DNA of 36,023 bases from an uncultured Oscillospiraceae bacterium (GTDB taxonomy: Bacteria > Bacillota > Clostridia > Oscillospirales > Oscillospiraceae), in contig CALWXB010000019.1 in assembly GCA_944385405.1 (NCBI GenBank), positions 1 to 36,023 of the forward strand. The letters run 5' to 3'. Under the pieces are notes generated by a model. That model worked only from the letters and a program-made list of their open reading frames with translations. It was not told where the DNA came from and did not search any database. The position numbers were made by a program, and so were the translations under genes. Below, in pieces: positions 5,978-32,071 of this stretch. Numbering within the stretch: position 1 is the first letter of the stretch; each line of letters starts with the position of its first letter.

Positions 5978-6883
5978 CTACGCCGTCCCGGCGCCGTAAT
6001 AAGTCTCCACGAAGCGGATGAAGTGCCTGGCCTGCTCGTCCAGGTAATCTCCGGGCCGGTAGACCAGATACAGGCTCCGCTCCGCTCCGCCCCCCGGCAG
6101 AGTGAAGGTCAGCAGCCGTCCCGCCCGGGCAAAATCCTGGGCGGCCTTGGCGGAGATGATGGACACCCCCATGCCGCCCGCCACCAGATTCTTGATGGAC
6201 TCCTGGTCGTTGAGCCGGGCCGTCACCTGCAGGTCCGACTCCTCCACCCCCATGCGTTCCAGATAGGCCTCCGCGCACTTCTTGCTGCCGCTGCCCTGCT
6301 CCCGGAGGATCATGGGCTGGGCCAGCATCTCCGCCAGGGTGACGCCGCCCCGGTCCCGCAGGGCCCGGAAGTAGGGGGTGTCAGGAGTGATGAGCACCAT
6401 GGCGTCCCGGTAGAAGGGCACGCTCTCCACCGACGGCTCCCGGCTGGGCATCCCCACCAGCCCCACCTGAAAGGCTCCACTCACCAGCCCTTCAATGACC
6501 CCCTGGCTGTCGCTTTGGTGGATGTCGAACCGCACGCCGGGCCGCTCTGTGCGGTAGGCCGGCAGGAGCTCCGGCAGGATATAGGCTGAGGGGATGGTGG
6601 AGGTGCCCAGGCGGATGATCTCCCGGTCCCCCTCCGCCCAGCGCTCCAGGAGACGGTCCCGCAGGGCCAGCATCCCGCCGGCGCACTCGTAGAGCTCCCG
6701 GCCCCGGACAGTGACCTGGACGCTCTTGGTGGTGCGGACGATGAGCCGGGTGTGGAGCTCCTCCTCCAGTGCCCGGATATGGGCGCTGATGGTGGGCTGA
6801 GAGATGTAAAGCTTTTCCGCTGCACGGGTAAAGCTCTGGCAGTCCACCACCGCCACAAAGGACTGCAGCTGCTTCAGTTCCAT
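5978..6883 (-). CDS. LysR-type transcriptional regulator, selenium-metabolism associated
   Basis: A 301-residue LTTR. Residues 1-60 form the winged helix-turn-helix ([33 protein letters not shown] region); residues about 90-295 form the periplasmic-binding-protein-like effector domain. Its start overlaps the end of the desulfurase-like gene by 10 bp, so the two are one operon. They face yedE-selD across a 153-bp divergent region with a dyad suitable for LTTR binding. A LysR subfamily consistently found next to selenium genes is known; membership here rests on context, not on a signature I can verify. The ligand is unknown but could be a selenium or sulfur compound. Confidence 0.9.
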
Positions 6884-8046
6884 ATCCGTCCCTCCCGGCT
6901 CAGCTCCTCCAGAGCGGAGAGCGCCGCGTCCACCTCCTCCGGCGTGTTCCGCCAGCCGAAGGAGAAGCGGATGGTGCCGGTGGGGTAGGTCCCCAGGGTC
7001 TGGTGGGCGGCGGGAGCACAGTGGAGCCCCACCCGGGTCATGATGCCGTACTCCGCATCCAGGGCGTAGGCCGTCTGGGCGGGGTCTGCGAACAGGGTCT
7101 GGATGGACACCACGCCGGTGCGGTCCGTCAGGTCCCGGCGGCCCGCGATGCGGAACTTCTCGCCCGCCGGATCCAGCGTCTCCAGTCCAGAGAGGAACCG
7201 CCCCGTCAGCTCCAGCTCGTGGGCCCGGATCCGGTCCAGTCCCGTCCGCTCCAGGAAGGACAGCGCCGCCCCCAGCCCCAGGATCCCAGGCAGGTTCATG
7301 GTCCCCGGCTCGAACCGGTCCGGCAGGAAATCCGGGACCTCCTCCGTGTGGCTGAGGCTGCCGGTGCCGCCGGAGAGCAGCGGGTCAATCTCCGATGCCA
7401 GCTCCTGCCGCAGCACGAAGCCGCCGATGCCCTGGGGCCCCAGCAGTCCCTTGTGGCCTGTAAAGGCCAGGGCATCCACACCCAGAGCCTCCATATCCAG
7501 GGGCCACACCCCGGCGGTCTGGGCAGTATCCAGGAAGAACCGCAGCCCGCGGGCCCGGCAGAAGGCCCCCACCTCCGCCGCCGGCAGCAGCGTGCCGCAG
7601 ACGTTGCTGGCGTGGGTCATCACCACCGCCCGGGTGTTCTCCCGCAGGCACCGGGGCAGGGCCTCCAGCTGCAGTGTGCCGTCGGCGCGGCAGGGGATGC
7701 GGGTAAAGGACACCCCTCCTTTCTCCAGCTGCCGCAGGGGCCGCATGACGGCGTTGTGCTCCATGGCGGACACCAGCGCATGGTCCCCCGGGCGGAGGAA
7801 GCCCTTGAGCAGCACGTTCAGGCTCTCCGTCACGTTTTTGGTGAAGATCACCTCCCGGCAGTCCCCGCCGCCGAAGAGATCACGCAGCTGCTGGCGTGTC
7901 TCGTACACCAGCTCCTCCGTCCGGTAGGCCATGGCGTAGCCTCCCCGATTGATGTTGCAGCCCCCCTCCGTCAGATAGCGGGCCATGGCCTCCGCCACTT
8001 CCGGCGGCTTGGGGAAGGTGGTGCTGGCGTTGTCCAGATAGATCAT
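6874..8046 (-). CDS. Class V aminotransferase, cysteine desulfurase / selenocysteine lyase-like
   Basis: A 390-residue PLP enzyme of the cysteine desulfurase family (SufS/CsdA-like). The PLP lysine is K199 in [11 protein letters not shown], the PLP-pairing Asp is D173 in FLDTAQ, and the candidate catalytic cysteine is C343 in RVGLHCAP. Such enzymes strip sulfur or selenium from (seleno)cysteine and pass it as a persulfide or perselenide. Placed in an operon with a LysR gene and facing yedE/selD, it plausibly feeds selenium to SelD. The ATG at 8046 has GGAGGG 8 nt upstream. Selenium versus sulfur preference cannot be read from the sequence. Confidence 0.9.
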
Positions 8047-8078
8047 CGAGAGGTCCCTCCTCGTTTGTTGCTGCCATC

Positions 8079-8107
8079 AGTATACACCCGATTTATTTGA
8101 TTTTCAA
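8079..8107 (-). promoter_or_regulatory. Promoter of the desulfurase-lysR operon
   Basis: On the minus strand, TTGAAA (8107-8102), a 17-bp spacer and TATACT (8084-8079): a near-consensus sigma-A promoter 33 bp before the ATG. Confidence 0.75.
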
Positions 8108-8126
8108 ATCAGTTCAGCAGGCTGAT
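8098..8126. promoter_or_regulatory. Candidate LysR operator region
   Basis: Two dyads sit between the divergent -35 elements: TGATTT-TC-AAATCA (8098-8111), which overlaps the desulfurase -35, and ATCAG-N9-CTGAT (8108-8126). An LTTR site placed here could repress its own operon and activate yedE. The dyads are seen; binding is inferred. Confidence 0.5.
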
Positions 8127-8139
8127 AAATGATTCCGAT

Positions 8140-8168
8140 TGGACACACCCCCGCAGACATGATATGCT
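8140..8168 (+). promoter_or_regulatory. Promoter of the yedE-selD operon
   Basis: TGGACA (8140-8145), a 17-bp spacer and TATGCT (8163-8168) lie 31 bp before the yedE ATG. Confidence 0.65.
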
Positions 8169-8199
8169 GAAGGTGTATTTGGGAAGGAGTGTGTACGTT

Positions 8200-9288
8200 A
8201 TGCAACTCAAGGGAGAAAAAACCGTCATCGTCCTGGCCGGCTGCGTCATCGGCGTGCTGGCCTCGCTGCTGGTATTCTGGGGGAACCCGGTGAATATGGG
8301 CTTTTGCATCGCCTGCTTCCTCCGGGACATCTCCGGCGCGCTGGGCTTTCACTCCGCCGCCGCAGTGCAGTATCTGCGGCCGGAGATCGTGGGGCTGGTG
8401 CTGGGCAGCTTCCTGCTGGCAGTGTGCCGGAAGGAGTTTTCCGCCCGGGGCGGCAGCTCGCCCCTGACCCGCTTCGTGCTGGGCATGCTCGTGATGATCG
8501 GGTGCCTGATGTTTTTGGGCTGCCCCTTCCGGATGATCCTGCGGATCGCCGGCGGCGATCTCAACGCCCTGTTCGGCCTGGGCGGCTTCGTCTGCGGCAT
8601 CCTGGCCGGCGTCTTTTTCCTGAACCGGGGCTACACCCTGCGCCGCAGCTACGCCCTGCCCCGGCTGGAGGGCGCGCTGTTCCCCACCATCATGGCCGTA
8701 CTGCTGGTGCTGCTGGTGGCGGTCCCCTCCCTGCTGCGCTTCACGGAGGCCGGCGGCGGCCCCGGCGCCCTCCACGCGCCGGTACTTATCAGCCTGGCGG
8801 CGGGCCTCATCGTGGGCGCCCTGGCCCAGCACACCCGCCTTTGCATGGTGGGCGGCATCCGGGACATGGTGCTCTTCCGGGAGTCCAAGCTGCTGCTGGG
8901 CTTCATCGCGGTGTTTGCCAGCACCCTGGTGTGCAACCTGATCCTCTCCGCCGTCACCGGCACCAGCTACTTCAATCTGGGGATGGCGGGCCAGCCCGTG
9001 GCCCACACCGACGGCCTGTGGAACTTCCTGGGCATGCTGCTGGCGGGCTGGGGCTGCGTGCTGCTGGGCGGCTGCCCCCTGCGGCAGCTGGTGCTCTCCG
9101 GCGAGGGCAATGCCGACAGCGCCCTGACGGTGCTGGGCCTCATGGCCGGCGCCGCCGTGTCCCATAACTTTTCCCTGGCCTCCAGCGCCGACGGCCCCAC
9201 CGCAAACGGCAAGATTGCGGTGATCCTCGGCCTTTGCGCCGTGGCGGTCATCGCCTGCCTGGGGACCTTCCGCAAGGACCGCACATAA
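8200..9288 (+). CDS. yedE: YedE family putative selenium transporter
   Basis: A 362-residue integral membrane protein of the YedE/YeeE (sulfur transport) superfamily, selenium-linked subgroup. It has about ten hydrophobic helices and the paired conserved motifs of the fold: NMGFCIACFLRD near residue 32, LGCPFRM near 105, HTRLCMVGGIRDM near 215 and LLGGCPLRQL near 288. The cysteines in these motifs are the likely chalcogen-relay residues in the family. The ATG at 8200 is preferred because GGAAGGAG lies about 11 nt upstream; the in-frame ATG at 8164 overlaps the -10 box. It is the first gene of a tight operon ending in selD, which strongly supports a selenium role. Confidence 0.92.
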   Translation: MQLKGEKTVIVLAGCVIGVLASLLVFWGNPVNMGFCIACFLRDISGALGFHSAAAVQYLRPEIVGLVLGSFLLAVCRKEFSARGGSSPLTRFVLGMLVMIGCLMFLGCPFRMILRIAGGDLNALFGLGGFVCGILAGVFFLNRGYTLRRSYALPRLEGALFPTIMAVLLVLLVAVPSLLRFTEAGGGPGALHAPVLISLAAGLIVGALAQHTRLCMVGGIRDMVLFRESKLLLGFIAVFASTLVCNLILSAVTGTSYFNLGMAGQPVAHTDGLWNFLGMLLAGWGCVLLGGCPLRQLVLSGEGNADSALTVLGLMAGAAVSHNFSLASSADGPTANGKIAVILGLCAVAVIACLGTFRKDRT

Positions 9289-9300: not shown

Positions 9301-9507
9301 ATGAACATCATTGACGCAAGAGGACTTTCCTGCCCGGAGCCCGTGATCCTGCTGCGCCGGGCCATGGCCTCCGGCGAGGCGTCCTACCAGATCCTGGTGG
9401 ACAACCACGCCTCCCGGGAGAACACCACCCGCTACGCCCAGCACCAGGGTTATCAGGTGTCCGTGACGGAGGCGGACGGGGTGTACACCCTGACCTTTAC
9501 GAAATGA
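9301..9507 (+). CDS. TusA/YedF-like sulfur (selenium) carrier protein
   Basis: A 68-residue single-domain TusA-fold protein. The conserved LSCPEPVI motif puts the carrier cysteine at C11. Such proteins accept persulfide or perselenide from a desulfurase and hand it on. The selenium-linked YedF proteins are usually about 190-200 residues, a TusA domain plus a DsrE-like domain; this copy has only the TusA part. AAGGAGG precedes its ATG 12 bp after yedE, and its stop overlaps the next start (ATGA), so the products are probably made in a fixed ratio. A role in delivering selenium to SelD is inferred from context. Confidence 0.88.
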   Translation: MNIIDARGLSCPEPVILLRRAMASGEASYQILVDNHASRENTTRYAQHQGYQVSVTEADGVYTLTFTK

Positions 9508-9746
9508 CCTGCATCGCCACCTTTTTCTCCCACTTCGGCGCCGTCCGCTGCCAGCGGACCTGCCGGGCGCTGGGCCGTCCCGCCCGGATGATGCCGGTGC
9601 CCCGGACCTTGAGCAGCAGCTGCGGCACCTGCGTGCAGTGGGAGGGAGAACCGGAGCTGCCGGAGGACGTGCTGGCGGACGTGGAGCAGATCGTGGAAAT
9701 TACCACGCAGGGCTACCGCCCCATTTACCGGGCGGGCAGCCTGTAA
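9504..9746 (+). CDS. DUF3343 putative Se/S carrier-like protein
   Basis: An 80-residue protein of the DUF3343 type (Pfam describes the family as a putative Se/S carrier). A short N-terminal segment (CIATFFSHFGAVRCQR) is followed by VPRTLSSSCGTC, where C40 and C43 form a CxxC pair that could carry a chalcogen. It starts 4 bp inside the TusA-like gene and ends 21 bp before selD. The position between carrier and SelD fits selenide or perselenide hand-over. No experimentally proven activity is known to me for this family. Confidence 0.85.
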   Translation: MTCIATFFSHFGAVRCQRTCRALGRPARMMPVPRTLSSSCGTCVQWEGEPELPEDVLADVEQIVEITTQGYRPIYRAGSL

Positions 9747-9767: not shown

Positions 9768-10802
9768 TTGGAGACGGAAGTGAAACTCACCAAGCTGGCC
9801 AGCTGTGCCGGCTGCGGCGCCAAGGTAGGCGCCGGGACGCTGGTATCCATGCTGGAGGGGTTCCGCACCCACTTGGACCCCCGATTGCTGGTGGGCTATG
9901 ACAAAAGTGACGACGCCTGCGTCTATCAGCTGGATGAAACCACCGCCCTGGTGCAGACCACGGACTTTTTCCCCCCCATCGTGGACGATCCCTTCCTCTA
10001 CGGCCAGATCGCCGCAGCCAACGCCCTCAGCGACGTGTACGCCATGGGCGGCGAGCCCCGGCTGGCGCTGAACATCCTGTGCCTTCCGGAGCAGATGGGG
10101 GAGGATGCCGTCCGGGAGCTGCTGCGGGGCGGCTACGACAAGGTCTATGAGGCCGGGGCCGTCATCGCCGGGGGCCACACCATCCACGGCGCGGAACCCA
10201 TCTACGGCCTGGCGGTCACCGGATTCGTGGATCCCCGGCGGATGCTGACCAACAGTGCCGCCCGGCCCGGGGACGCGCTGATCCTCACGAAGCCCCTGGG
10301 CATTGGGGTCCTCACCACCGCCGCCAAGGCGGATCTGGTGGCCGAGCCGGTGCTGCAGCGGATCTACCGGCAGATGGCCGCGCTGAACCGGGCTGCCCGG
10401 GACGTGATGGTCCGTCACGATGTCCACAGCTGCACCGACGTCACCGGCTTCGGCCTGCTGGGCCACAGCTTCGAGATGGCCCAGGGCAGCGGCTGCACTC
10501 TGCGCATCCGCACCGCCGACGTGCCCTTCCACCCGGAGGCCTGGGAGCTGGCGGACATGGGCTTCCTCCCCGCCGGGGCCTACCGCAACCGGGACTACGC
10601 CGAATACGGCGTGGAGGCCGGAGCGGTGTCCCGCACCATGCAGGACCTGCTCTACGACCCCCAGACCAGCGGCGGGCTGCTGATGGCCCTGCCCATGGAG
10701 GAGGCGGCAGACTGCCTGCGGGAGCTGCGGATCGTGGCTCCGGACGCGGCATGCATCGGCCGCGTCACGGAACGGGCCGAAAACTGGATCGTGCTGGAAT
10801 GA
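9768..10802 (+). CDS. selD: Selenide, water dikinase (selenophosphate synthetase)
   Basis: A 344-residue AIR-synthase-like enzyme that uses ATP to turn selenide into selenophosphate, the selenium donor for selenocysteine, selenouridine and selenium-dependent molybdenum hydroxylases. The catalytic pair is C16 and K19 in CAGCGAK, matching C17/K20 of E. coli SelD, so this is the cysteine form and no UGA recoding is needed. Further family motifs are VQTTDFFPPIVDDP, GQIAAANALSDVYAMGG and GGHTI. The start is a TTG at 9768 with AAAGGAGG 7 nt upstream. No selA or selB is visible in the window. Confidence 0.97.
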   Translation: METEVKLTKLASCAGCGAKVGAGTLVSMLEGFRTHLDPRLLVGYDKSDDACVYQLDETTALVQTTDFFPPIVDDPFLYGQIAAANALSDVYAMGGEPRLALNILCLPEQMGEDAVRELLRGGYDKVYEAGAVIAGGHTIHGAEPIYGLAVTGFVDPRRMLTNSAARPGDALILTKPLGIGVLTTAAKADLVAEPVLQRIYRQMAALNRAARDVMVRHDVHSCTDVTGFGLLGHSFEMAQGSGCTLRIRTADVPFHPEAWELADMGFLPAGAYRNRDYAEYGVEAGAVSRTMQDLLYDPQTSGGLLMALPMEEAADCLRELRIVAPDAACIGRVTERAENWIVLE

Positions 10803-10849: not shown

Positions 10850-11875
10850 TCAGCGCTGGACGCGGCCGGAGGCGTTGCCGCCCGCCAGGGACTCCACCTC
10901 GGAGACGGACATGAGGTTGAAGTCGTGCTCCACGCTGTGCTTGAGGCAGGAGGCCGCCACGGCGAAGTTGATGGCCTTCTGATCGTCATAGCCGGAGAGC
11001 AGGGCGTAGATGAGGCCGCCGCCGAAGCTGTCGCCGCCGCCCACGCGGTCCACGATGTGCACCCGGTAGGTGGGAGAGAAATAGGCCTGGCCACCGCTGT
11101 ACAGCATGCCCGCCCAGTCGTTGTCCGTGGCGGAGATGCTGCCCCGCAGGGTGATGGCCACCTTCTGGAAGCCGAAGCGGTCCGCCAGCTGGCGGGCCAC
11201 GCTGATGTAGCCCTGATGATCCACCTTGCCGGCGTTGAGGTCGGTGTTCTCCGCGGCGATGCCGAACACGTCCTTGGCATCCTCCTCATTGGCGATGCAC
11301 ACATCCACATAGGGCATCAGCTCCGCCATCACCCGGCCTGCCTCTTCCCGGGACCAGAGCTTCTTGCGGTAGTTCAGGTCGCAGCTGACGGTCAGTCCCA
11401 TGGCCTTGGCCTGCTTGCAGGCCTCCAGGCAGATCTGGGGCAGCTGGCCGCCCAGGGCGGGCGTGATGCCGGTGAAGTGGAACCAGTCCGCCCCGGCAAA
11501 GGTCTCTTCCCAGTTGAATTCCTCAGGCTGGGCCTTGGCAATGGCGGAACCAGCACGGTCATAGATGACCTTGGAGGCCCGCTGGGAGGCGCCTTTTTCC
11601 ACGAAGTACAAGCCCAGCCGGTCGCCGCCCCGGACGATGCCCCGGGTGTCCACGCCGAAGCGGCGCAGCTCATTGACGGCGCACTGGCCGATCTCGTGGG
11701 CGGGGACCTTGGTGACAAAGGCCGCGTCCATGCCGTAGTTGGCCAGGGACACCGCCACATTGGCCTCGCCGCCGGCATAGGTGGCCTCAAACTTCTCGGC
11801 CTGGACGAAGCGCAGGTAGCCCTCCGGATTCAGCCGCATCATGATCTCGCCAAAAGTAACGATCCGTTTCATCAT
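10850..11875 (-). CDS. kdgK: 2-keto-3-deoxygluconate kinase, PfkB family
   Basis: A 341-residue ribokinase/PfkB-family kinase. The N-terminal sugar-binding glycines are in YAGGEANVAVSLANYG (residues 33-48), and the C-terminal ATP/anion-hole motif GGGDSFGGG (279-287) carries the catalytic base D282. It is predicted to phosphorylate 2-keto-3-deoxygluconate (or the galacto epimer) to KDPG/KDPGal. The partner aldolase eda lies 19 bp upstream in the same operon, which makes KDG the best substrate. AGGAG precedes a double ATG (11875 or 11872). Other hexose substrates cannot be excluded from sequence alone. Confidence 0.92.
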   Translation of the reverse strand: MMKRIVTFGEIMMRLNPEGYLRFVQAEKFEATYAGGEANVAVSLANYGMDAAFVTKVPAHEIGQCAVNELRRFGVDTRGIVRGGDRLGLYFVEKGASQRASKVIYDRAGSAIAKAQPEEFNWEETFAGADWFHFTGITPALGGQLPQICLEACKQAKAMGLTVSCDLNYRKKLWSREEAGRVMAELMPYVDVCIANEEDAKDVFGIAAENTDLNAGKVDHQGYISVARQLADRFGFQKVAITLRGSISATDNDWAGMLYSGGQAYFSPTYRVHIVDRVGGGDSFGGGLIYALLSGYDDQKAINFAVAASCLKHSVEHDFNLMSVSEVESLAGGNASGRVQR

Positions 11876-11894
11876 TGTCTCTCCTTTTCTTTCC

Positions 11895-12548
11895 TTACGC
11901 GTTCTTCGCCGCGTCTACGAGCTTGCGGGCCGTCTCCGTGATCTTGTGATACTCCCCGGCCTCGATCCACTTCTTGTTGGCAAGGTTGCCGCCTACGCCG
12001 GCGCCTACCAGGCCCGCGTGCAGGAAGTCCGCCACGTTGTCTTCATTGACGCCGCCCACCGCCAGCAGCTTCACGTGGCTGATGGGGGCCCGGATGGCCT
12101 TGACATAGGGAATGCCCAGGTTCCCCACCGGGAACAGCTTCACGAAGTCCGCACCGGCATTGTGGGCCGTCATCACTTCGGTGGGGGTCATGGCGCCGGG
12201 CAGGGACACCATTCCCAGCTCCCGGGTCCGGCGGATCACGTCCACGTTCACATCCGGGGAGATGATATACTTCGCCCCGGCGGAGGCCGCCAGCTCCACC
12301 AGCTCCACAGAGGTGACAGTGCCCGCGCCCACCAGCATCCGGCCCGCATAGGCCTCCCCGATGGCACGGATGGCGCCTGCGGTGGCGTCAAAGGACGCCG
12401 GGTCCTTCTGGTCGAAGGTGATCTCCATCAGCCGGATCCCGCCCTCGTACAGTGCGTCGGCCACCTTCCGGCAGGCCTCTGCGCCCACGCCGCGGACGAT
12501 GGCGATGATCTTCTCTTCCTGGATCTTTGCAATGACTTCTTCGCGCAT
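11895..12548 (-). CDS. eda: 2-dehydro-3-deoxy-phosphogluconate (KDPG/KHG) aldolase
   Basis: A 217-residue class I aldolase of the Eda family splitting KDPG (or KDPGal) into pyruvate and glyceraldehyde 3-phosphate. The Schiff-base lysine is K137 in GADFVKLFPV and the catalytic Glu is E42 in MEITF; VGAGTVTS (73-80) and LAVGGVN complete the active-site loops. It is the first gene of the eda-kdgK operon, with a near-consensus promoter and repeats in its leader. It is divergent from an IclR-family gene. Together with DgoD further along it completes a galactonate-type route to central metabolism. Confidence 0.95.
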   Translation of the reverse strand: MREEVIAKIQEEKIIAIVRGVGAEACRKVADALYEGGIRLMEITFDQKDPASFDATAGAIRAIGEAYAGRMLVGAGTVTSVELVELAASAGAKYIISPDVNVDVIRRTRELGMVSLPGAMTPTEVMTAHNAGADFVKLFPVGNLGIPYVKAIRAPISHVKLLAVGGVNEDNVADFLHAGLVGAGVGGNLANKKWIEAGEYHKITETARKLVDAAKNA

Positions 12549-12569
12549 AGCGGTTCCTCCATTTTTTAC

Positions 12570-12600
12570 ATCGTGAAACTTTTTGCCGAATCGTGATATT
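12570..12600 (-). promoter_or_regulatory. Candidate operator in the eda leader
   Basis: On the minus strand AATATCACGATT (12600-12589) is followed by GTTTCACGAT (12579-12570), giving the direct repeat TCACGAT with a 20-bp period, about two helical turns. It starts just after the -10 box, a repressor position. AATATCAC recurs just after the divergent iclR promoter. Confidence 0.5.
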
Positions 12601-12610
12601 TTCTAATCTG

Positions 12611-12639
12611 GTTATACCCTGTTTCCCTCCTGCTGTCAA
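12611..12639 (-). promoter_or_regulatory. Promoter of eda-kdgK
   Basis: On the minus strand, TTGACA (12639-12634), a 17-bp spacer and TATAAC (12616-12611): a perfect -35 and strong -10, about 60 bp before the eda ATG. Confidence 0.85.
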
Positions 12640-12688
12640 GGGCCCACTGCCGCCGAAATTTTACCGCTCCTTCTGGACAAATTGATGG

Positions 12689-12717
12689 TTGCACCTGATC
12701 GGGATTCATGATATCCT
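12689..12717 (+). promoter_or_regulatory. Promoter of the IclR gene
   Basis: TTGCAC (12689-12694), a 17-bp spacer and TATCCT (12712-12717) lie 37 bp before the ATG. Confidence 0.55.
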
Positions 12718-12723
12718 AACTAC

Positions 12724-12735
12724 AAATATCACATT
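12724..12735 (+). promoter_or_regulatory. Candidate autoregulatory operator of the IclR gene
   Basis: AAATATCACATT begins 6 bp after the -10 box and shares AATATCAC with the eda leader element, in the same orientation relative to its own promoter. Binding by the IclR protein is inferred. Confidence 0.42.
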
Positions 12736-12754
12736 ATGAAAAAGAGGCTGTATT

Positions 12755-13528
12755 ATGCGTTCCTCACCTGGTTCCGTTCAATCCATCGACCGTGTGCTGG
12801 AGATCCTGGAGACGCTGTCCACTGCGCCGCTGGGGATGTCCCTTTCCGATCTGGCCGCCGCCACCAATCTTCATGTCAGCACTACCCACCGTCTGGTCAA
12901 CGTCCTGACGGAGCACGGCTATGCCCTGAAGGATTCCTCCAGCGGAAAGTACCGGCTGACTCTGCGGACTTTTGAGATCGGCAGCCGGGTCTCCAGCGTG
13001 TGGAACCTGCTCTCCGCAGCCAAGCCCCATCTGGACGAGCTGGCGGCAGAGTGCCAGGAGGCGGTCCACCTGGTGGAGCGGGACGGCATGGGCATCGTCT
13101 ATCTCTACAAGGCCGAGCCTTTCCAGCAGCTGGTGCGCATGTCCTCCCACGTGGGATTGCGCAATCCCATGTACTGCACCGGTGTGGGCAAGAGCATCCT
13201 CTCCCTGCTGCCCCAGGACGAGGCAGAGGAGATCTGGAACAACGAGGAGATCCAGACCTTCACCCCCAACACCATCACCACCTTCCCGGATATGATCCGG
13301 GAAATGGAGCGGATCCGGGCCCGGGGCTACGCCATCGACGACGAGGAGCACGAGGTGGGGGTGCGCTGCATCGCCGCAGCCATCCGCAACTGGGCAGGCA
13401 ATCCTGTGGCGGCGGTGAGCATCTCCGCACCGGTCTCCCGGATGGACGAGGCCACCATGCAGCGCCTGCTGCCCTCCCTTCTGCGGACGGTGGATGAGAT
13501 CAGTCGCATGCTGGGCCACCGGGCCTGA
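12755..13528 (+). CDS. IclR family transcriptional regulator (KdgR-like)
   Basis: A 257-residue IclR-type regulator. The N-terminal winged HTH spans about residues 8-70 (QSIDRVLEILETL ... LHVSTTHRLVNVL), and the effector-binding GAF-like domain spans about 85-250 with the family stretch YCTGVGKSILSLL and a C-terminal AVSISAPVSRM. AAAGAGG precedes the ATG. It is divergent from eda-kdgK with a motif shared by both promoters, so it most likely controls that operon and itself; KDG or a related acid is the likely ligand. The ligand assignment is inference from the neighbours. Confidence 0.92.
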   Translation: MRSSPGSVQSIDRVLEILETLSTAPLGMSLSDLAAATNLHVSTTHRLVNVLTEHGYALKDSSSGKYRLTLRTFEIGSRVSSVWNLLSAAKPHLDELAAECQEAVHLVERDGMGIVYLYKAEPFQQLVRMSSHVGLRNPMYCTGVGKSILSLLPQDEAEEIWNNEEIQTFTPNTITTFPDMIREMERIRARGYAIDDEEHEVGVRCIAAAIRNWAGNPVAAVSISAPVSRMDEATMQRLLPSLLRTVDEISRMLGHRA

Positions 13529-13558
13529 CGCCTCTCCCCTTTTCCGTCAAAACGGCTG

Positions 13559-13590
13559 CGAGGGCCGCACCCCATGGGGTGCGGCCCTCG
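13559..13590. terminator. Bidirectional terminator between iclR and larA-like
   Basis: A perfect 32-bp palindrome, halves CGAGGGCCGCACCCCA and its complement, centred on ATG/CAT at 13574-13575, with CCTTTTGC following on the plus strand. It lies between convergent genes. Confidence 0.75.
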
Positions 13591-13613
13591 CCTTTTGCTT
13601 CGATCCTGCCGGA

Positions 13614-14894: not shown

Positions 14895-14938
14895 TTCAAT
14901 CACCCTTTTTCATAATAGTTTGGCACGTTCCGCGTGCA

Positions 14939-14966
14939 GGACACGCCGCGGACACGCCGCGGACAC
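14939..14966. repeat. Short tandem repeat upstream of the larA-like gene
   Basis: GGACACGCCGC occurs twice head to tail (14939-14949 and 14950-14960), followed by a partial third GGACAC. The 11-bp unit is one helical turn. It may be an operator or simple slippage. No convincing promoter for the larA-like gene is seen beside it. Confidence 0.6.
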
Positions 14967-15079
14967 CCTGTGCGCCGCGCCGTCTCCTGTCCGCAGACTC
15001 TACTTTAAGTAAACCACAAGCCAGGGAAAATCGCAAGCCCTTTCCAGCTCTTCATCCAGAATTCTCCAGAGAAACAGAC

Positions 15080-15109
15080 CCGGCGGCGGAGGCGCACCTC
15101 CGCCGCCGG
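15080..15109 (-). terminator. GC-rich hairpin after dctM (weak terminator)
   Basis: A 13-bp stem (15080-15092 with 15097-15109) with a CGCA loop lies 36 bp after the dctM stop. The minus-strand tail GTCTGTTTCTC has few Ts, so read-through into the larA-like gene is possible. Confidence 0.45.
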
Positions 15110-15144
15110 GGAGGCTGGCAGGAATCGTCTATTCCGGTGCCGCG

Positions 15145-16916: not shown

Positions 16917-16959
16917 AAGCTTTTCCCTGAAGCAAAACAACCGCAGCGCTTCGCTCTCG

Positions 16960-18174: not shown

Positions 18175-18175
18175 T

Positions 18176-18620: not shown

Positions 18621-18626
18621 AAAAGA

Positions 18627-19915: not shown

Positions 19916-19919
19916 CATA

Positions 19920-19948: not shown

Positions 19949-20020
19949 GGCGGCAACCGGAGGCACCGCCGGGTGATTCGTTCTGCCCGGCGGCCTCAAA
20001 CTACCAAGGAGGTCGTCTCT

Positions 20021-21142: not shown

Positions 21143-21188
21143 GACAAGATCAATTTTGAATGTTGAATACGGGAGGGATCGGAGCATC

Positions 21189-21956: not shown

Positions 21957-21974
21957 TAAAGGAGTTTGATGGAT

Positions 21975-24141: not shown

Positions 24142-24145
24142 GGCG

Positions 24146-24988: not shown

Positions 24989-25018
24989 ATTGTAAGCCGG
25001 AGCAGCAGCGCCTGTCAA
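24989..25018 (-). promoter_or_regulatory. Promoter of yqeB-xdhC
   Basis: On the minus strand, TTGACA (25018-25013), an 18-bp spacer and TACAAT (24994-24989). The -35 overlaps the modC stop codon. It lets the hydroxylase maturation pair be expressed apart from mod/moa. Confidence 0.75.
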
Positions 25019-26037
25019 CCAGGCAGCACCCACACCCGCTCCGGGTCCAGAGAAAGGGCCACCTCCGTGCCCGGTGATGCGTCCGCTGAAGGCGGCAGCT
25101 CTGCCCACAGCAGCGCCTCCCGCTCAGCTCCCGACAGGCGCACCAGCAGCGCGGTGCGCCGCGTGTCCCGGCGTACCCGCTCCACGGTGCCCCGCAGGGG
25201 CCCCTCCCCCAATCGGACGGCCTCAGCGGGCACCGCCAGCGTCCACGTTCCCGCCGGTCCCTTCCAGGGAATCGTCACGCCCCAGGACGGCGCCGTCACG
25301 GTCTCCCCGTCCGCCACGGCCCGGGCAAAGTTCCGGCAGCCCGCCAGTCGGGCGGCCTCCGCCGTTTCCGGGCGCCGCAGCATCTCCTCCATGCCGGTGA
25401 TCCGGCCGGTGCGCCCCGCCTCCAGGACACACACCCGGCGGCAGTTGCGGCAGCACTCCTCCGGATCGTGGGAGACCCACAGGATGGGGCCGGGAAAACC
25501 GGCCAGCAGATCCGTCAGCTCCGTCTCCAGGTTCCACTTGAGGTACCCGTCCAGGGCGGAGAAGGGCTCGTCCAGCAAAATGGCCTGTGGGCGGCTGGCC
25601 AGGATCCGTGCCAGAGCCACCCGCTGCTGCTGTCCGCCGGAGAGCTGGGCGGGATAGTGATGCTCCAGCCCCTCCAGCCGGAAAGAGCGCAGATACTCCG
25701 CCGTCAGGCGGTCCCGCTCCGCTCCCTTCGCCGGGACGGCGCAGCGGATGTTCTGCGATGCCGTCATGTTGGGGAACAGCGCGTACTGCTGGAAGAGATA
25801 TCCCACCTGCCGCTGCTGGGGCCGCAGATCGATGCCTGCCTCGCTGTCAAAAAGCACCCGGTCTCCCAGGGTGATGCGGCCCTGGTCCGGGGTCAGGATG
25901 CCCGCGATGCACCGAAGCGTCACGCTTTTCCCGCAGCCGGAGGCCCCCAGCAGCGCCAGCGTCTCCTCCTCCGCCGTGAAGGACACCCGCAGGTGAAAGT
26001 CCCCCAGGCGCTTTTCGATGTCCACACACAGCTTCAT
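25015..26037 (-). CDS. modC: Molybdate ABC transporter ATP-binding protein
   Basis: A 340-residue ABC ATPase with a C-terminal regulatory extension. Walker A is GASGCGKS (31-38), the signature is LSGGQ (132-136), Walker B is ILLDEP (153-158), followed by the H-loop SHDPEE. The C-terminal ~100 residues resemble a Mop/TOBE module that may sense molybdate. The ATG at 26037 overlaps the modB stop in an ATGA, showing translational coupling. Tungstate or sulfate relatives are possible, but the molybdopterin genes upstream favour molybdate. Confidence 0.93.
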   Translation of the reverse strand: MKLCVDIEKRLGDFHLRVSFTAEEETLALLGASGCGKSVTLRCIAGILTPDQGRITLGDRVLFDSEAGIDLRPQQRQVGYLFQQYALFPNMTASQNIRCAVPAKGAERDRLTAEYLRSFRLEGLEHHYPAQLSGGQQQRVALARILASRPQAILLDEPFSALDGYLKWNLETELTDLLAGFPGPILWVSHDPEECCRNCRRVCVLEAGRTGRITGMEEMLRRPETAEAARLAGCRNFARAVADGETVTAPSWGVTIPWKGPAGTWTLAVPAEAVRLGEGPLRGTVERVRRDTRRTALLVRLSGAEREALLWAELPPSADASPGTEVALSLDPERVWVLPG

Positions 26038-26720
26038 GCCATCCGCCTCCTGACATGGGCCGTCTCCCGCTGCCGCCGCTCCAGCAGGTTCACCGCCAGC
26101 AAAATCACGGCGGAGATGGCCACGTTCACCAGCACCCACCGGAAGGCCAGGGCGTCGTCGTTGGTGCGCCAGAGCTGGTAGACGGTGGTGGAGATGGTGG
26201 CAGTGCGGACGGGGGTGTAGCCCGCGATCATGGAGGTGGCGCCGTATTCTCCCAGCGCCCGGGCGAAGGAGAGCACGGTCCCCGCCAGGATGCCCTGGCG
26301 GCAGCAGGGCATCCGTACCCGCCAGAAGATGTACGTGTTGGAGAGCCCCAGGGTCCGCCCGGCGTCCGCCAGCGTCTCGTCGAAAGCCTCGAACGCCCCC
26401 CGCACCGTGCGGTACATCAGGGGGAAGATCACCACGGCGGTAGCGAAGATGGCGGACCACCAGGTCATCACCAGCTTCACGCCGAACACCTCCAGCGCCC
26501 ATGCGCCGATGATCCGCTTGGGCCCCAGCACCCGCAGCAGCAGATAGCCCACCACGGTGGGCGGCAGCACCAGCGGCAGCGTCAGCACCACATCCAAAAG
26601 GCCCTTGATGACCCGGGGCAGCCGTGCCACATAGTAGGCCGCGGCAATGCCGGCGAAGAAGATCACAGCGGTGGAGATGGCGGCGATGCGCAGGGAGTTC
26701 CACAGGGGATACCAGTCCAT
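26034..26720 (-). CDS. modB: Molybdate ABC transporter permease
   Basis: A 228-residue permease with five to six helices. The EAA-loop, which contacts the ATPase, is seen as FARALGEYGATSMIAGYTP near residues 145-165; YxxLWNSLRIA opens the protein as in ModB. The ATG at 26720 has GGAGG 6 nt upstream; an in-frame GTG 15 bp earlier lies inside that site and is rejected. It lies 54 bp after modA and overlaps modC by 4 bp. Confidence 0.94.
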   Translation of the reverse strand: MDWYPLWNSLRIAAISTAVIFFAGIAAAYYVARLPRVIKGLLDVVLTLPLVLPPTVVGYLLLRVLGPKRIIGAWALEVFGVKLVMTWWSAIFATAVVIFPLMYRTVRGAFEAFDETLADAGRTLGLSNTYIFWRVRMPCCRQGILAGTVLSFARALGEYGATSMIAGYTPVRTATISTTVYQLWRTNDDALAFRWVLVNVAISAVILLAVNLLERRQRETAHVRRRMA

Positions 26721-26774
26721 AGGACACCTCCTCACCGGAAGGGCCGGGAGATCCCGGCCCTTCTCACAAATTCA

Positions 26775-27635
26775 TCAGAACGCAGGAGAGAACCCCACGC
26801 TCTCAAAAACGGCCATGGCCGCGTCGGTCTGCAGGTAGTCCAGCAGCGCCTGGGCCTGCTCCGTCCTGCCCGCCTTCAGCACGGCGGCGGGATAGATCAC
26901 CTGGCCGCACATCTCGCCGGTGGCGCTGTCCACCACGGTGAGCCCCGCAGAAAAGGCGTCGGTTGCATAGATGATGCCGCAGTCCACAGCCCCTTCGCTG
27001 ACCTGGGTGGTGACCTCCTTCACATCGGAGCCGTAGGTCAGCTTGCCCGCGGCCTCCATGTCCGCCACGGAGAGACCGTAGTAGTCAAAGATCTTCAGGG
27101 TATACTGCCCCACCGGCACGTCGCTGTTGCCCATTGCCAGCAGCACACTGTCCGCACCGCCCAGCAGCTGGGAGAGCTGATCGAAGCTCTCGATCCCGGC
27201 GGGGTTCCCCTCCGGTACCGCCAGCGTCACCTTGTTCTCCAGCAGGTCGATGCGGCTGCCCTCCAGCAGCATGTCCAGGCCGTCAGGGTTCTTCTCCGCG
27301 TCATCTGCCAGGGCGCCGTCCAGGGCGTTCATCTGGGTAGGAGCGGCGGAGATGAAGAGATCGCAGTCCGCGCCCTCCTTGATCTGGGTCAAGAGATCCC
27401 CGGAGGAGGCGAAGTTGAAGGTCAGCGTCACCTCCGGGGCAACCTCTTTATAAAGCTCCGCGATCTCCGTCAGCGTCTCCGTCATGGAGGCGGCGGCAAA
27501 GATCATCAGTTCCGTCTGCTCCTCCCCGTTCTGCTCCGTCTCCGGAGCCTCTTCCTTGCTGCCGCCGCAGGCCGTGAGGCCCATGGCCAGGACCAGGGAC
27601 AACGCCAGGGACATCCACTTTTTCATTTTCTTCAT
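26775..27635 (-). CDS. modA: Molybdate-binding lipoprotein
   Basis: A 286-residue extracytoplasmic receptor. The signal peptide MKKMKKWMSLALSLVLAMG ends in the lipobox LTAC, followed by an acidic linker. The mature part starts ELMIFAAASMTETLTEI, the usual ModA opening that supplies oxyanion-binding residues; FNFASSGDLLTQI and a late DCGIIYATDA give the other ligand loops. AAAGG precedes the ATG at a slightly long spacing. It heads modABC and is separated from the moeA-like gene by a 106-bp gap with a hairpin, so modABC may have extra local control. Confidence 0.94.
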   Translation of the reverse strand: MKKMKKWMSLALSLVLAMGLTACGGSKEEAPETEQNGEEQTELMIFAAASMTETLTEIAELYKEVAPEVTLTFNFASSGDLLTQIKEGADCDLFISAAPTQMNALDGALADDAEKNPDGLDMLLEGSRIDLLENKVTLAVPEGNPAGIESFDQLSQLLGGADSVLLAMGNSDVPVGQYTLKIFDYYGLSVADMEAAGKLTYGSDVKEVTTQVSEGAVDCGIIYATDAFSAGLTVVDSATGEMCGQVIYPAAVLKAGRTEQAQALLDYLQTDAAMAVFESVGFSPAF

Positions 27636-27741: not shown

Positions 27742-28761
27742 TCATTTTCCGAAGGGACAGACGGGATACCGGCAGGGCTTGCACCCCAGGCACAGTCCCC
27801 CCTCTCCCATAGCCGCCAGGTCCGCCCGGGTGATCTCCACCCCGGCAGCCACCCGGGGCAGCACCAGATCGAACACCGTGGCCCCGGCATACATGACACA
27901 CCCCGGCAGCCCCATCACCGCCGTGCCGTCTTCAAAATATCCCATGAGGAACATGGCCCCGGGCAGCACCGGCGCACCGTAGGCCACCACCCGTGCCCCC
28001 GCGGCCCGGATGCCGCCGGGGGTATTGTCGTCGGGGTCCACGCTCATACCGCCGGTGCAGAGGATCAGCTCCGCGCCGGTGTTGCGCATCTCCCCGATGG
28101 CATCCCGCACCGCCTCCACCCCGTCGCCGGAGTAGGTGACGGCCAATGTCTCGATGCCGTAGGACGCCAGCTTGTCCCGCACCACCGGGGTAAAGGTGTC
28201 CTGAATGAGGCCCTTTTTCACCTCGCTGCCGGTGGCCACGATGGCCGCCGTCTTTTTCACATAGGGCAGCAGCTCCAGAAGGGGTCCCGTTCCGGCGGCT
28301 TCTTCGGCGGCCCGGAGGACCTCCTCCCGGATCACCAGAGGGATCACCCGCATCCCCGCCAGCTTGTCTCCCCGGCGGACGGCGGTGTTGCCGCGGCGGG
28401 TGGCGATCATCACCTCGTCGCTGGCGTTCACCGCCAGCAGCCGCCGGCTGTCCACCCGGAAGAGGCCGTCGCAGGCGGCGGTGAGCTCGATCTTGCCCTC
28501 CTTGACATCGCTGCGGTCCATGTGGTCATTGCGGCAAAGGGCCAGCAGCCGTTCCGCCGCGTCGTTTTCATGGACCATGCCCGGCTCCATCTCCCAGACG
28601 TAGAGGTGCTCCTTGCCCATTTCCAGCAGCACCGGGATGTCCTCCGGCTGCACCACGTGGCCCTTGCGGAACCGGGCGTCTTTGTACTGGTCCTTGATGA
28701 TCTGGGTCAGGTCGTGGCAGAGCACGTGGCCCACCGCCTGACGGGTCTCGATCAGCTTCAT
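27742..28761 (-). CDS. Molybdopterin-binding (MoeA-like/MoaB-domain) protein with C-terminal cysteine motif
   Basis: A 339-residue protein whose residues about 165-310 form a MoaB/Mog-type domain (AAIVATGSEV, ILCTGGMSVDPDDNTP, GMSVDPDD being the pterin-binding loop). MoeA normally inserts molybdenum into molybdopterin-AMP. This protein is shorter than canonical MoeA (about 400 residues) and differs at the N-terminus. It ends in CLGCKPCRYPVCPFGK, four closely spaced cysteines that could bind metal. Its start overlaps the MOSC stop (ATGA). A molybdenum-insertion or cofactor-handling role is inferred. Confidence 0.85.
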   Translation of the reverse strand: MKLIETRQAVGHVLCHDLTQIIKDQYKDARFRKGHVVQPEDIPVLLEMGKEHLYVWEMEPGMVHENDAAERLLALCRNDHMDRSDVKEGKIELTAACDGLFRVDSRRLLAVNASDEVMIATRRGNTAVRRGDKLAGMRVIPLVIREEVLRAAEEAAGTGPLLELLPYVKKTAAIVATGSEVKKGLIQDTFTPVVRDKLASYGIETLAVTYSGDGVEAVRDAIGEMRNTGAELILCTGGMSVDPDDNTPGGIRAAGARVVAYGAPVLPGAMFLMGYFEDGTAVMGLPGCVMYAGATVFDLVLPRVAAGVEITRADLAAMGEGGLCLGCKPCRYPVCPFGK

Positions 28762-29207
28762 GTCGTCGCCTCCAGGATCGTGATGGGGTCCCCCTTGCGC
28801 ACCGTCCCCTCCCGGACCACGATGGCAAAGATCCCCTCGGTGGGCATGACGCAGGTTCCGGTGATGCGGCGGATGGCACAGTCGTTGTGGCACTCCTTGC
28901 CGATCTGGGTCACCTCCACCACGGTCTCCCCGATCTGCAGCCGCGTCCCCACCGGCAGCGCGGTGAGGCAGATGCCCTCCGTATTGATGTTCTCAGCAAA
29001 AATACCGTGGGGCAGATCCACGCCCAGGCCCCGCATCCGATCCACGCTCTCCTGAGCCAGGAGGCTGATCTGACGGTGCCAGTCCCCGGCGTGGGCGTCC
29101 CCTACGATGCCGTGGCGGAGCCGCAGCTGGATCTCCGGCACCTCCTGCTTAGGCGTCCCCTTCTCCCGGCTGATGTTCACCGCTGTCACCTTCGCGCTGG
29201 TAGACAC
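28758..29207 (-). CDS. MOSC domain protein
   Basis: A 149-residue stand-alone MOSC domain, related to the C-terminal domain of molybdenum cofactor sulfurase. It has [13 protein letters not shown] near the start, [23 protein letters not shown] near residue 33 (family motif G-D-x-H-x-G, with RQ-S-L), and C-terminal [16 protein letters not shown], where C109 or C118 could carry sulfur. The start is a GTG at 29207 with GGAAGGAGG 8 nt upstream, and it begins 59 bp inside moaC. Such proteins may hand sulfur or selenium to the cofactor; that is a proposal. Confidence 0.88.
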
Positions 29208-29655
29208 CGCTTTTTCCTCCTTCCTTGTACAAAAGCCGCACGTCTGTGATCTCCATGTCCCGCTGCACCGCCTTGCACATGTCGTATACCGTCAGCGCTG
29301 CGGCGGACGCCGCCGTCAGCGCCTCCATCTCCACGCCGGTCTCGCCCCGGCAGGAGACTTCGCTGTAAATCGTCAGCACCTCCGGCTCCAGGGTGAAATG
29401 CAGGTCCACCCGGCTCAGCAGCAGCGGGTGGCACATGGGGATGAGGTCGCTGGTGCGCTTGGCAGCCATGATCCCCGCCACCTGCGCCACCGCCAGCACA
29501 TCGCCCTTGCCGATGGTGCCCGCCCGGATACGGTCCATGGTCTCCGCCGCCATCCTCACCCGGGCCATGGCCCGGGCGGTGCGGTGCGTCACAGGCTTTC
29601 CACCCACATCCACCATGTGGGCCCGGCCCTCGTCATTGAAATGCGTCAGCTCCAT
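29149..29655 (-). CDS. moaC: Cyclic pyranopterin monophosphate synthase
   Basis: A 168-residue MoaC that converts the MoaA product 3',8-cyclo-GTP into cyclic pyranopterin monophosphate. Signatures are [16 protein letters not shown] near residue 14, K50 in GTIGKGDV (K51 of E. coli), IPMCHPLLL (72-80), GVEMEALTA (108-115) and [12 protein letters not shown] with K128 (K131 of E. coli). The tail [10 protein letters not shown] is typical, then about 13 extra residues overlap the MOSC gene. It starts 3 bp after the moaA stop. Confidence 0.96.
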
Positions 29656-30656: not shown

Positions 30657-30664
30657 AGCAGATG

Positions 30665-30705
30665 TCCGGTATTTTCGAATTATTATTCGGTATTGTCGGA
30701 AATTC
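30665..30705. promoter_or_regulatory. Candidate IclR operator between moaA and iclR promoters
   Basis: Two imperfect direct repeats, TCCGGTATTTTCGAA (30665-30679) and TTCGGTATTGTCGGAA (30686-30701), start 21 bp apart, so they lie on one helix face. They fill the gap between the two divergent -35 elements. Regulation of both operons by the adjacent IclR protein is inferred. Confidence 0.55.
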
Positions 30706-30735
30706 TTGACATTACGACGCATGGGCGGCTATGAT
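30706..30735 (+). promoter_or_regulatory. Promoter of the second IclR gene
   Basis: TTGACA (30706-30711), an 18-bp spacer and TATGAT (30730-30735), 45 bp before the ATG. Confidence 0.8.
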
Positions 30736-30780
30736 AAAGAAAAAACCACCCCCTAGGGGCGGAAATGGGAGGGACTTCAC

Positions 30781-31551
30781 ATGCCGGACGGCAACACGAT
30801 CCGCTCCGTGGCCAAGGCCATGGAGCTGCTGCAGCTCCTCTGCGACGCCGGAGAGCCGCTGGCGCTGGGACAGATCAGCGCCCGGGCGGGGCTTCCCCGG
30901 AGCACAGTGTTCGGTCTGCTGACCACCATGCGGGATTACGACGTCGTCACCCAGCACGCCGACGGGAAATACGCCCTGGGTCTGCGGCTGTTCGAGTACG
31001 GCTGCCGGGTCAGCAGCTCCTGGGACATTTCGGCGGTGACCCGGCCGTACCTGGAGCATCTGGCGTCGGAGGTAGGGGCGTCGGCCATGCTGTGCGTCCA
31101 CGAGGGAGGCCGCGCCATCACGTTGGAGCAGGCGGAGGGCCGGGGAGACCTGCGGGTGGTCTCGGAGATCGGGGCCCGGCTGCCGCTGTACTGCACCTCA
31201 CAGGGCAAGCTCTTCCTCTCCGCCCTGCCCCGGCACGAGGCGGCGGGACTGCTGCATAAGCTGCAGCTGATCCCCTACACCCCTCACACCCTGACGGATC
31301 CGGAGGTCCTTTTGGCCCAGCTGGAGGAAATCCGGCAAAACGGCTACGCCGTAGAGAACGGCGAATACAAGATCGGCCTGCGGTCCATCTCCGCGCCGGT
31401 GTACCAGCGGGATGGGGCGCTGCGCTACACGGTGGGCGTCATCGGCATGTTCCGCTCCGTGCATTCCCCGGAATTCCACCGGGCCATCGGCGCGGTGGTC
31501 TCCGCCGGACAGATGATCTCCGCGGCGCTGGGCTATGAACCGGTACACTGA
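30781..31551 (+). CDS. IclR family transcriptional regulator, divergent from the molybdenum operon
   Basis: A 256-residue IclR-type protein. The winged HTH occupies about residues 6-66 (RSVAKAMELLQLL ... LPRSTVFGLLTTM) and the ligand domain about 80-245, with YCTSQGKLFLSAL near residue 138 and ENGEYKIGLRSISAPVY near 198. GGGAGGGA precedes the ATG. It is divergent from moaA with paired repeats between the promoters and convergent with mogA. Known molybdenum control usually uses ModE or a riboswitch, so an IclR protein here is unusual. Its ligand may be a hydroxylase substrate (for example a purine or N-heterocycle); this is speculation. Confidence 0.92.
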   Translation: MPDGNTIRSVAKAMELLQLLCDAGEPLALGQISARAGLPRSTVFGLLTTMRDYDVVTQHADGKYALGLRLFEYGCRVSSSWDISAVTRPYLEHLASEVGASAMLCVHEGGRAITLEQAEGRGDLRVVSEIGARLPLYCTSQGKLFLSALPRHEAAGLLHKLQLIPYTPHTLTDPEVLLAQLEEIRQNGYAVENGEYKIGLRSISAPVYQRDGALRYTVGVIGMFRSVHSPEFHRAIGAVVSAGQMISAALGYEPVH

Positions 31552-31592
31552 AAAACGCAGCGGACCCACATGAGGGCCGCTGCGTTTTTCAG
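31548..31592. terminator. Bidirectional terminator between iclR and mogA
   Basis: A 16-bp stem (31548-31563 with 31577-31592) with AAAAA and TTTTT arms encloses a 13-nt loop that holds a further CCC/GGG pairing. It covers the stop codons of both convergent genes. Confidence 0.85.
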
Positions 31593-32071
31593 TCGTGTCC
31601 GCCGCCCCGGAGCATGGCCAGGGCGTGGTCCAGGGTATCCAGCACGGCGGCAAGATTCTCCCGAGCCGCCTTTTCCGACCCCGGCAGATTCAGGATCAGG
31701 CTTCGCCCCCGGGTTCCCGCCTTGGCCCGGGACAGCATGGCCCGGGGGGTGATGGCCAGCGACGCCCACAGCATGGCCTGGGGGATGGCGGGGATCTCCC
31801 GGTCCACCACTGCCGCCGTGGCCTCTGGGGTCACGTCCCGGGGGGAGAGGCCGGTGCCGCCGGTGGTGACGACCAGATCCGCCCCCAGTACGTCCGCCGC
31901 CTCGATGAGCGCGGCCTCGATGGCTGGCTGATCATCCGGCACCACGGCGGCATGGATCACCCGGCAGCCCGCCTCCTCCAGCATGACCCGTACCCGTGGG
32001 CCGCTGGTATCCTGCCGCTTCCCGGCGGCGCAGGAATCGCTGATGGTGTAAACGGCAGCAGTATGATTCAT
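31589..32071 (-). CDS. mogA: MogA/MoaB family molybdopterin adenylyltransferase
   Basis: A 160-residue MoaB/Mog-fold protein predicted to adenylate molybdopterin before molybdenum insertion. The conserved loop TTGGTGLSPRDVTPEAT spans residues 69-85 with the key Asp D79; YTISDSCAAGKRQDTSG opens the fold, and ILNLPGSEKAARENL closes it. GGAGAGGAG precedes the ATG. It is monocistronic, between the S-layer gene and the iclR gene, about 1 kb from moaA. The family contains both MogA and MoaB types with the same reaction, and the symbol is chosen by length and context. Confidence 0.9.
   Translation of the reverse strand: MNHTAAVYTISDSCAAGKRQDTSGPRVRVMLEEAGCRVIHAAVVPDDQPAIEAALIEAADVLGADLVVTTGGTGLSPRDVTPEATAAVVDREIPAIPQAMLWASLAITPRAMLSRAKAGTRGRSLILNLPGSEKAARENLAAVLDTLDHALAMLRGGGHD

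Follow-up and report, generated by a model that had tools for sequence, protein, structure and literature searches.

Selenium- and molybdenum-supply genes in an Oscillibacter-type genome, and the hydroxylase they may serve

Contig CALWXB010000019.1 from an uncultured Oscillospiraceae bacterium (assembly GCA_944385405.1) carries selD, the gene for selenophosphate synthetase, together with yqeB and a set of molybdenum genes, and no molybdenum hydroxylase. Which use of selenium does this SelD serve, and where is the enzyme that would receive the selenium? The window analyzed here is the whole contig (C19; 36,023 nucleotides) of a metagenome-assembled genome (MAG) of 2.2 Mb in 84 contigs, 88% complete. 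Genes were called by profile searches, with model scores in bits read against model cut-offs. Very probably, the window holds the supply side of a selenium-cofactor trait in an Oscillibacter-type MAG in which the selenocysteine (Sec) and selenouridine (SeU) systems were not found. Gene content, the Sec and SeU searches, co-occurrence and synteny form the basis of this reading, and from them we infer every biochemical step. The proposal of an initial annotation, that SelD is used mainly for cofactor selenium, is supported by the gene content of the genome and by the pattern across the genus.

The selenium genes form a block in which yedE, tusA, a DUF3343 gene and selD are divergent from a minus-strand pair encoding a LysR_Se regulator and a lyase-like enzyme (Table 1). 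Profile matches confirm selD, yedE and the TusA-like and DUF3343 proteins, which the initial annotation had placed at 8200-10802; PF11823 is, we assume, the DUF3343 family. The pair at 5978-8046, left unnamed in the initial annotation, belongs to the same block. SelD is of the cysteine form, its active loop aligning as AGCGAK with AGCGCK in PDB 3u0o, and an in-frame TGA is absent.

The molybdenum genes follow one another on the minus strand as moaA-moaC-MOSC-MoCF-modA-modB-modC-yqeB-xdhC; mogA lies upstream of this run, separated from it by an IclR gene of the opposite strand. The earlier gene list for 23182-32071 holds for yqeB, the XdhC-like gene, modABC, moaA, moaC, MOSC and mogA, but not for its 'moeA-like' gene, whose product has a C-terminal MoCF_biosynth domain only and reaches no MoeA cut-off. 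Alignment with relatives puts the true start of yqeB at about 24946; the longer open reading frame to 25108 is over-extended. The earlier statement that selA, selB, selU and a hydroxylase gene are missing from the window also stands, with no match to SelA or SelU, nothing above the SelB cut-off, and the MoCoBD_1 domain found only on another contig, C3.

Table 1. Features of the window, and loci of the hydroxylase family A1 in other genomes (positions within the named stretch)
Feature	Position	Strand	Basis
LysR_Se regulator (selenium metabolism-associated LysR)	5978..6883	-	NF040786 298 bits, cut-off 250
Cysteine desulfurase / selenocysteine lyase-like PLP enzyme (EF2568 family)	6874..8046	-	TIGR01977 438 bits, cut-off 377
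yedE, putative selenium transporter	8164..9288	+	TIGR04112 491 bits, cut-off 200
tusA-like sulfurtransferase, possible Se/S carrier, single domain	9301..9507	+	PF01206 61 bits, cut-off 28.6
Se/S carrier-like protein	9504..9746	+	PF11823 42.5 bits, cut-off 25
selD, selenophosphate synthetase	9768..10802	+	TIGR00476 396 bits, cut-off 125
Sugar-acid (galactonate/KDG) operon, between the blocks	10850..23123		profile matches
XdhC-family maturation factor (Moco sulfuration/selenation chaperone-like)	23182..24174	-	PF13478 138 bits, PF02625 63 bits
yqeB	24146..24946	-	TIGR03309 351 bits, cut-off 220
modC, molybdate ABC ATPase	25015..26031	-	ABC_tran + TOBE; reading frame over-extended upstream to 26727
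modB, molybdate permease	26034..26735	-	TIGR02141 202 bits, cut-off 182.6
modA, molybdate-binding protein	26775..27626	-	TIGR01256 103 bits, cut-off 62.5; reading frame over-extended upstream to 27899
Molybdopterin-binding (MoCF_biosynth) protein	27742..28893	-	PF00994 72 bits, residues 217-348 only
MOSC-domain protein	28758..29207	-	PF03473 44 bits
moaC	29149..29655	-	TIGR00581 208 bits, cut-off 141.5
moaA	29659..30600	-	TIGR02666 340 bits, cut-off 284
mogA/moaB-type molybdopterin adenylyltransferase	31589..32071	-	TIGR00177 121.5 bits, cut-off 85
A1 locus, L096	233-3777
A1 locus, L117	196-3731
A1 locus, L043	1727-5269
A1 locus, L038	6836-10538
A1 locus, L039	7272-10869
A1 locus, L040	8000-11553

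The label 'without the enzyme' is right for the window and wrong for the genome. Contig C3 (14524-21528) encodes XdhC (253 bits), XdhB (416 bits) and XdhA (1216 bits, cut-off 780), each above cut-off, and a fused FeS-Mo protein that scores 1322 bits, against a cut-off of 830, with TIGR03311, the model for selenium-dependent xanthine dehydrogenase. The genome's two MoCoBD_1 matches are both on this contig. A MocA-like gene on the opposite strand separates the two large hydroxylase genes, and a ModE-type DNA-binding protein is encoded nearby (55 bits, under the cut-off of 98.5). In the PDB, the C3 hydroxylase matches best the aldehyde oxidoreductase 1sij and the nicotinate dehydrogenase 3hrd, the latter through its large Mo subunit (E 1.9e-92). 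The yqeC gene is found on a third contig, C23 (TIGR03172 130.6 bits, cut-off 73), among neighbours without an evident link.

Together, these genes would most likely make up a route from selenium and molybdate to a selenated hydroxylase. YedE would take up or spare selenium, the lyase-like enzyme would release it, and the TusA- and DUF3343-type proteins would carry it to SelD for conversion to selenophosphate. ModABC would import molybdate, MoaA, MoaC and MogA would build the molybdenum cofactor (Moco), and the MocA-like protein probably converts it to the cytidine form. YqeB and XdhC would then place selenium as the terminal Mo ligand in the C3 hydroxylase, with an unclear part for YqeC. The client would be the TIGR03311 enzyme, possibly also XdhABC, oxidizing xanthine or a like substrate.

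Other outlets for selenophosphate were sought by profile. SelA has no match in the window's genome, the only one searched for it (PF03841, with an E. coli positive control). The best SelB score there is 129.9 bits, under the cut-off of 242 (TIGR00475), and the best tRNA-Sec score is 43.0 bits, under the gathering score of 47 (RF01852). SelU/ybbB has no match at E 1e-10 (TIGR03167) in any of the 86 genomes of the genus set (Oscillibacter or its GTDB equivalent), the window's genome included. SelB exceeds its cut-off in seven of the 86, and tRNA-Sec scores 69.6-73.8 bits in exactly these seven; stricter filters were applied in the tRNA-Sec search over 40 genomes. Another seven genomes, none of them with selD, score 47.3-49.1 bits, barely above the gathering score; we read these hits as other long-armed tRNAs.

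Could a Sec system have been lost in assembly, so that SelD also serves selenoproteins? Two points that weigh against our reading speak for this: in a MAG of this completeness and 84 contigs an absence may be a gap, and LysR_Se is reported almost only with Sec decoding in the excerpt cited (PMC5322559). Moreover, both SelB and tRNA-Sec occur in seven genomes of the genus. Yet SelA, SelB and tRNA-Sec are separate targets, none of which was found in the genome, and 79 of the 86 genus genomes have no SelB above cut-off, including the sister genome G044, which is 96% complete and likewise negative for SelU and tRNA-Sec. We consider such a loss very unlikely. The rest of the genome gives the picture named in advance as favourable to cofactor use, with hydroxylases and yqeC present, no match to SelA or SelU, and SelB and tRNA-Sec under their thresholds.

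Two SelB-bearing genomes of the seven (G056 and G100) have an in-frame TGA, possibly a selenocysteine codon, in selD (G056:C261:16649-17572 and G100:C2:33194-34114), in both cases no more than 3 kb from SelB. A selD fragment with a TGA also occurs at a contig end in G118, where SelB was not found.

Across the genus set, selD is found in 65 genomes, yqeB in 65, yqeC in 63 (62 above cut-off) and TIGR03311 in 61, the last counted at E 1e-200, which passes over short fragments. The presence of selD and yqeB agrees in 84 of the 86 genomes (Fisher p 2e-17, uncorrected for kinship). SelB is missing from 58 of the 65 selD genomes, and all 58 carry yqeB. The complete combination of selD, yqeB, yqeC and xanthine dehydrogenase (XDH) without SelB occurs in 49 genomes and with SelB in six; selD, yqeB and yqeC without TIGR03311 in eight; none of the genes in 17; TIGR03311 alone in three. 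The remaining patterns have one genome each: yqeC missing; selD, XDH and SelB only; and yqeB and XDH without selD (77% complete). In the subset examined for the Mo-hydroxylase domain, it is present in 44 of 45 selD-positive and 7 of 16 selD-negative genomes. Orphan-SelD cofactor use thus looks like the rule among the selenium users of this genus.

This pattern also bears on whether SelD feeds another selenium use, such as selenoneine synthesis. With yqeB in all 58 SelB-less selD genomes, cofactor use is always available to explain SelD; a second use may exist alongside it, and we give the alternative as a whole hardly any credence. More serious is the idea that the two blocks are unrelated neighbours, the molybdenum block serving sulfur-type hydroxylases or other molybdoenzymes. 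The blocks lie 13.5 kb apart with the sugar-acid operon between them, XdhABC may be sulfur-type, and molybdenum genes adjoin TIGR03311-like hydroxylases in the selD-negative genomes G003 and G022. Nevertheless, yqeB lies directly behind modC and follows selD through the genus as described; a moaA match is present in 18 of 80 named yqeB loci, and such loci, L062, L069, L081 and L095 for example, carry yqeC-yqeB-selD. We therefore judge it unlikely that the blocks are unrelated.

Several further results weigh against a selenium-cofactor trait supplied from the window. The lyase-like protein scores 429 bits with the SclA model, under its cut-off of 525; the window's XdhC 252 bits with NF045664, under 350; and ModC, in its over-long reading frame, 185 bits with TIGR02142, under 285. 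The mocA gene anticipated by the initial annotation is represented in the hydroxylase locus by a MocA-like gene, but at 154 bits it stays under the cut-off of 186. Two genomes with selD, yqeB and yqeC, G115 (88% complete) and G037 (73%), gave no MoCoBD hydroxylase, which may reflect a gap or another client. Deletion of yqeC in Clostridioides difficile had no obvious effect, according to the excerpt cited (PMC11448449).

The name of the client family adds a further point of this kind. Eight TIGR03311 proteins fall into two clades of four, with 81-93% and 84-88% identity within and 52-55% between them. The second clade occurs in G003, G022 and G031, all without a selD or yqeB match, so that the name 'selenium-dependent' is unsafe for it; the TIGR03311 model likely over-names a sulfur-type clade. 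Oscillibacter valericigenes carries both clades. A single family name was accordingly rejected as proof of selenium. Four proteins far above the TIGR03311 cut-off (L034 7908-10478, L035 1497-4166, L036 6675-9242 and L037 6153-8723) come from three genomes without selD and yqeB and from O. valericigenes. The selD-free members with their 52-55% identical hydroxylase offer a natural comparison of selenium with sulfur.

Why, then, do the two blocks stand apart? In the window, selD and yqeB are separated by 13,473 bases, whereas in 56 of the 64 genomes carrying both they lie no more than 1000 bases apart on one strand. In named relatives (e.g. L062, L069 and L081) modCBA-MoCF-MOSC-moaC-moaA is divergent from yqeC-yqeB-selD, and G099, which also has SelB, combines the selenium block, hydroxylases and mocA in one locus. 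The split recurs in G032 (contigs C228 and C139) and G044 (contigs C1 and C22, each of which breaks off within one and the same TRAP gene), with the same neighbours on both sides, and is therefore real and inherited; an assembly chimera was rejected on these grounds. No single contig of either genome spans both blocks. The sugar-acid genes are also present in G044 (L025/L026) and, as far as the contigs reach, in G032 (L028/L029), where the middle of the operon is not seen. We conclude that the separation of the blocks is probably derived.

Identity comparisons suggest different origins for the parts. In 13 genus members XdhA is 84-98% and the fused hydroxylase 82-99% identical to the window's genome, which suggests that the client hydroxylase is native and was kept in place; by the same comparison the molybdenum genes and yqeC look native. 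SelD is 94% and 79% identical in two sisters, 75% in G025 and only 62-65% in the other nine genomes examined. The SelD tree joins the window's copy and those of its sisters and G025 with G017, L099 and an Intestinimonas MAG, apart from the clade formed by the other genus members examined. Forcing the window and the two sisters into the main genus clade was rejected (p-AU 0.014) in an approximately unbiased (AU) test framed after the tree was seen, with G025 and G017 left out. Probably, therefore, selD was replaced by a foreign copy. For yqeB-xdhC a replacement is possible: beyond the sisters, the best XdhC relatives are L051-L053 (51-59% identity), which the YqeB tree also places near the window (support 93/95). 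Against this, the comparable YqeB constraint was not rejected (p-AU 0.078), in a test that omitted three genomes, G017, G099 and G109, whose YqeB likewise falls outside the main genus clade.

The gap between the blocks is thus probably a result of replacement, with new copies of selD, and perhaps of yqeB-xdhC, on either side of the sugar-acid operon. Sugar-acid genes do lie between the halves, as noted at first; their simple insertion is probably not the explanation, since SelD, and perhaps YqeB-XdhC, groups outside most genus copies.

The most promising new lead comes from outside the window. A1, an unclassified three-subunit molybdenum hydroxylase family, is the sole MoCoBD enzyme found in G012, G036, G039 and G103, four orphan-selD genomes (71-93% complete) that have yqeB and yqeC and no TIGR03311; their A1 proteins are 72-87% alike. 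The other four genomes of this pattern are G115 and G037, mentioned above, and G004 and G116, in each of which an incomplete XdhA like the window's (89% and 73%) lies at a contig end, so that the missing TIGR03311 gene may be a gap. No NCBIfam model scores A1 above cut-off; the best is XdhA, at 612 of 780. A1 is also found beside TIGR03311 in G060. Five strong genomes exceed 1600 bits, and more distant relatives occur in G099 (933 bits), G059 (894 bits; selD-negative, 67% complete), G007 and G042. All five strong genomes have selD, but so do 65 of the 86, giving a chance of about 0.25 (by hand); co-occurrence alone was rejected as evidence for this reason, and only sole-hydroxylase status and linkage count. 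Linkage appears in two Negativicutes MAGs, L096 (Schwartzia) and L117 (Phascolarctobacterium; its selD is truncated where the contig ends), where the A1 Mo, FeS and FAD genes are divergent from csd-yqeC-yqeB-selD, which makes A1 a candidate selenium enzyme; the Mo subunit identity is 66-67% in these MAGs. The Oscillibacter A1 stretches (L038-L040 and L043) have no yqeB, yqeC or selD match nearby.

We give about even chances to the combined proposal that A1 is a selenium-dependent molybdenum hydroxylase without a curated family of its own and that the window's clade swapped its selenium-insertion genes for foreign copies while the hydroxylase was kept. Alternatively, A1 may be the purine hydroxylase long known from purinolytic clostridia. 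If the combined proposal is true, the swap would mean that selenium-insertion machinery is interchangeable between lineages. A1 would also be worth assaying for selenium.

The 3hrd match of the C3 hydroxylase, nicotinate dehydrogenase of Eubacterium barkeri, is a Mo-Se enzyme according to the title of a work cited in PMC11448449; it differs in having its Mo subunit in two chains and in its substrate. C. difficile also uses selenocysteine, unlike the window's genome, in which no Sec genes were found. The two are alike in having yqeB, yqeC and selD unlinked to one another and several Mo-hydroxylases, and in C. difficile growth on xanthine and on uric acid is poor in the selD mutant as well as in the yqeB mutant (excerpt of PMC11448449, 2024). 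The same excerpt lists Enterococcus faecalis as a user of the selenium-cofactor trait alone and calls selenium-onto-molybdenum the least understood selenium route (PMC11448449).

The orphan-SelD idea, the trait and its marker genes were published by Haft and Self in 2008 (PMC2276186, in part). The E. faecalis locus given there (EF2563, EF2566, EF2568 and EF2570) resembles ours in selD, yqeB, yqeC and the EF2568-family lyase-like gene; each organism also has a fused FeS-Mo hydroxylase and a protein related to SirA/TusA, and shows no Sec or SeU system. We infer that TIGR03311 is the EF2570 type. In contrast to E. faecalis, the genes are spread over three contigs here (C19, C23 and C3), TusA is single-domain where E. 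faecalis has a TIGR03527 (YedF) protein, the selenium block includes LysR_Se, YedE and a DUF3343-family protein, and yqeB-xdhC lies behind modC. YedE, LysR_Se and DUF3343 are covered in the cited part of PMC5322559 (GBE 2015), and 312 selenium-cofactor organisms among more than 5200 are reported in that of PMC5029168 (ISME J 2016). The literature matches listed, open papers only, include none on the trait in Oscillibacter or on an A1-like hydroxylase family. The trait, its marker genes and orphan SelD are known; what is added here is the prevalence across the genus, the likely replacement, and A1. As 58 of 65 selD genomes have no other tested SelD use, the genus is a clean comparative set, in which genes tracking selD are candidates for the selenium-onto-molybdenum route.

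Of the factors that might act in this route, YqeB has only weak PDB matches by profile (best E 0.073). Among 55 YqeB sequences Cys129 is invariant, Cys237 is kept in 50 and Cys232 in 40; a selenium-binding role for these cysteines is a guess. Riboswitch control, such as by Moco RNA, was dropped: no Rfam family reaches its gathering score in the window, and the other stretches searched gave three ordinary hits.

The operon between the blocks, which we leave outside the selenium/molybdenum system, encodes a KDG-kinase-like protein, KDPG aldolase, IclR, a TRAP transporter, Ldh_2, Fe-ADH, SDR and galactonate dehydratase. It also includes a nickel-pincer cofactor-dependent isomerase of group 22 (13614-14903; 464 bits, cut-off 400). 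On the other side, a large SLH-domain surface protein (32250-34844) adjoins the molybdenum block; its counterpart in G044, at the same position, is 41% identical.

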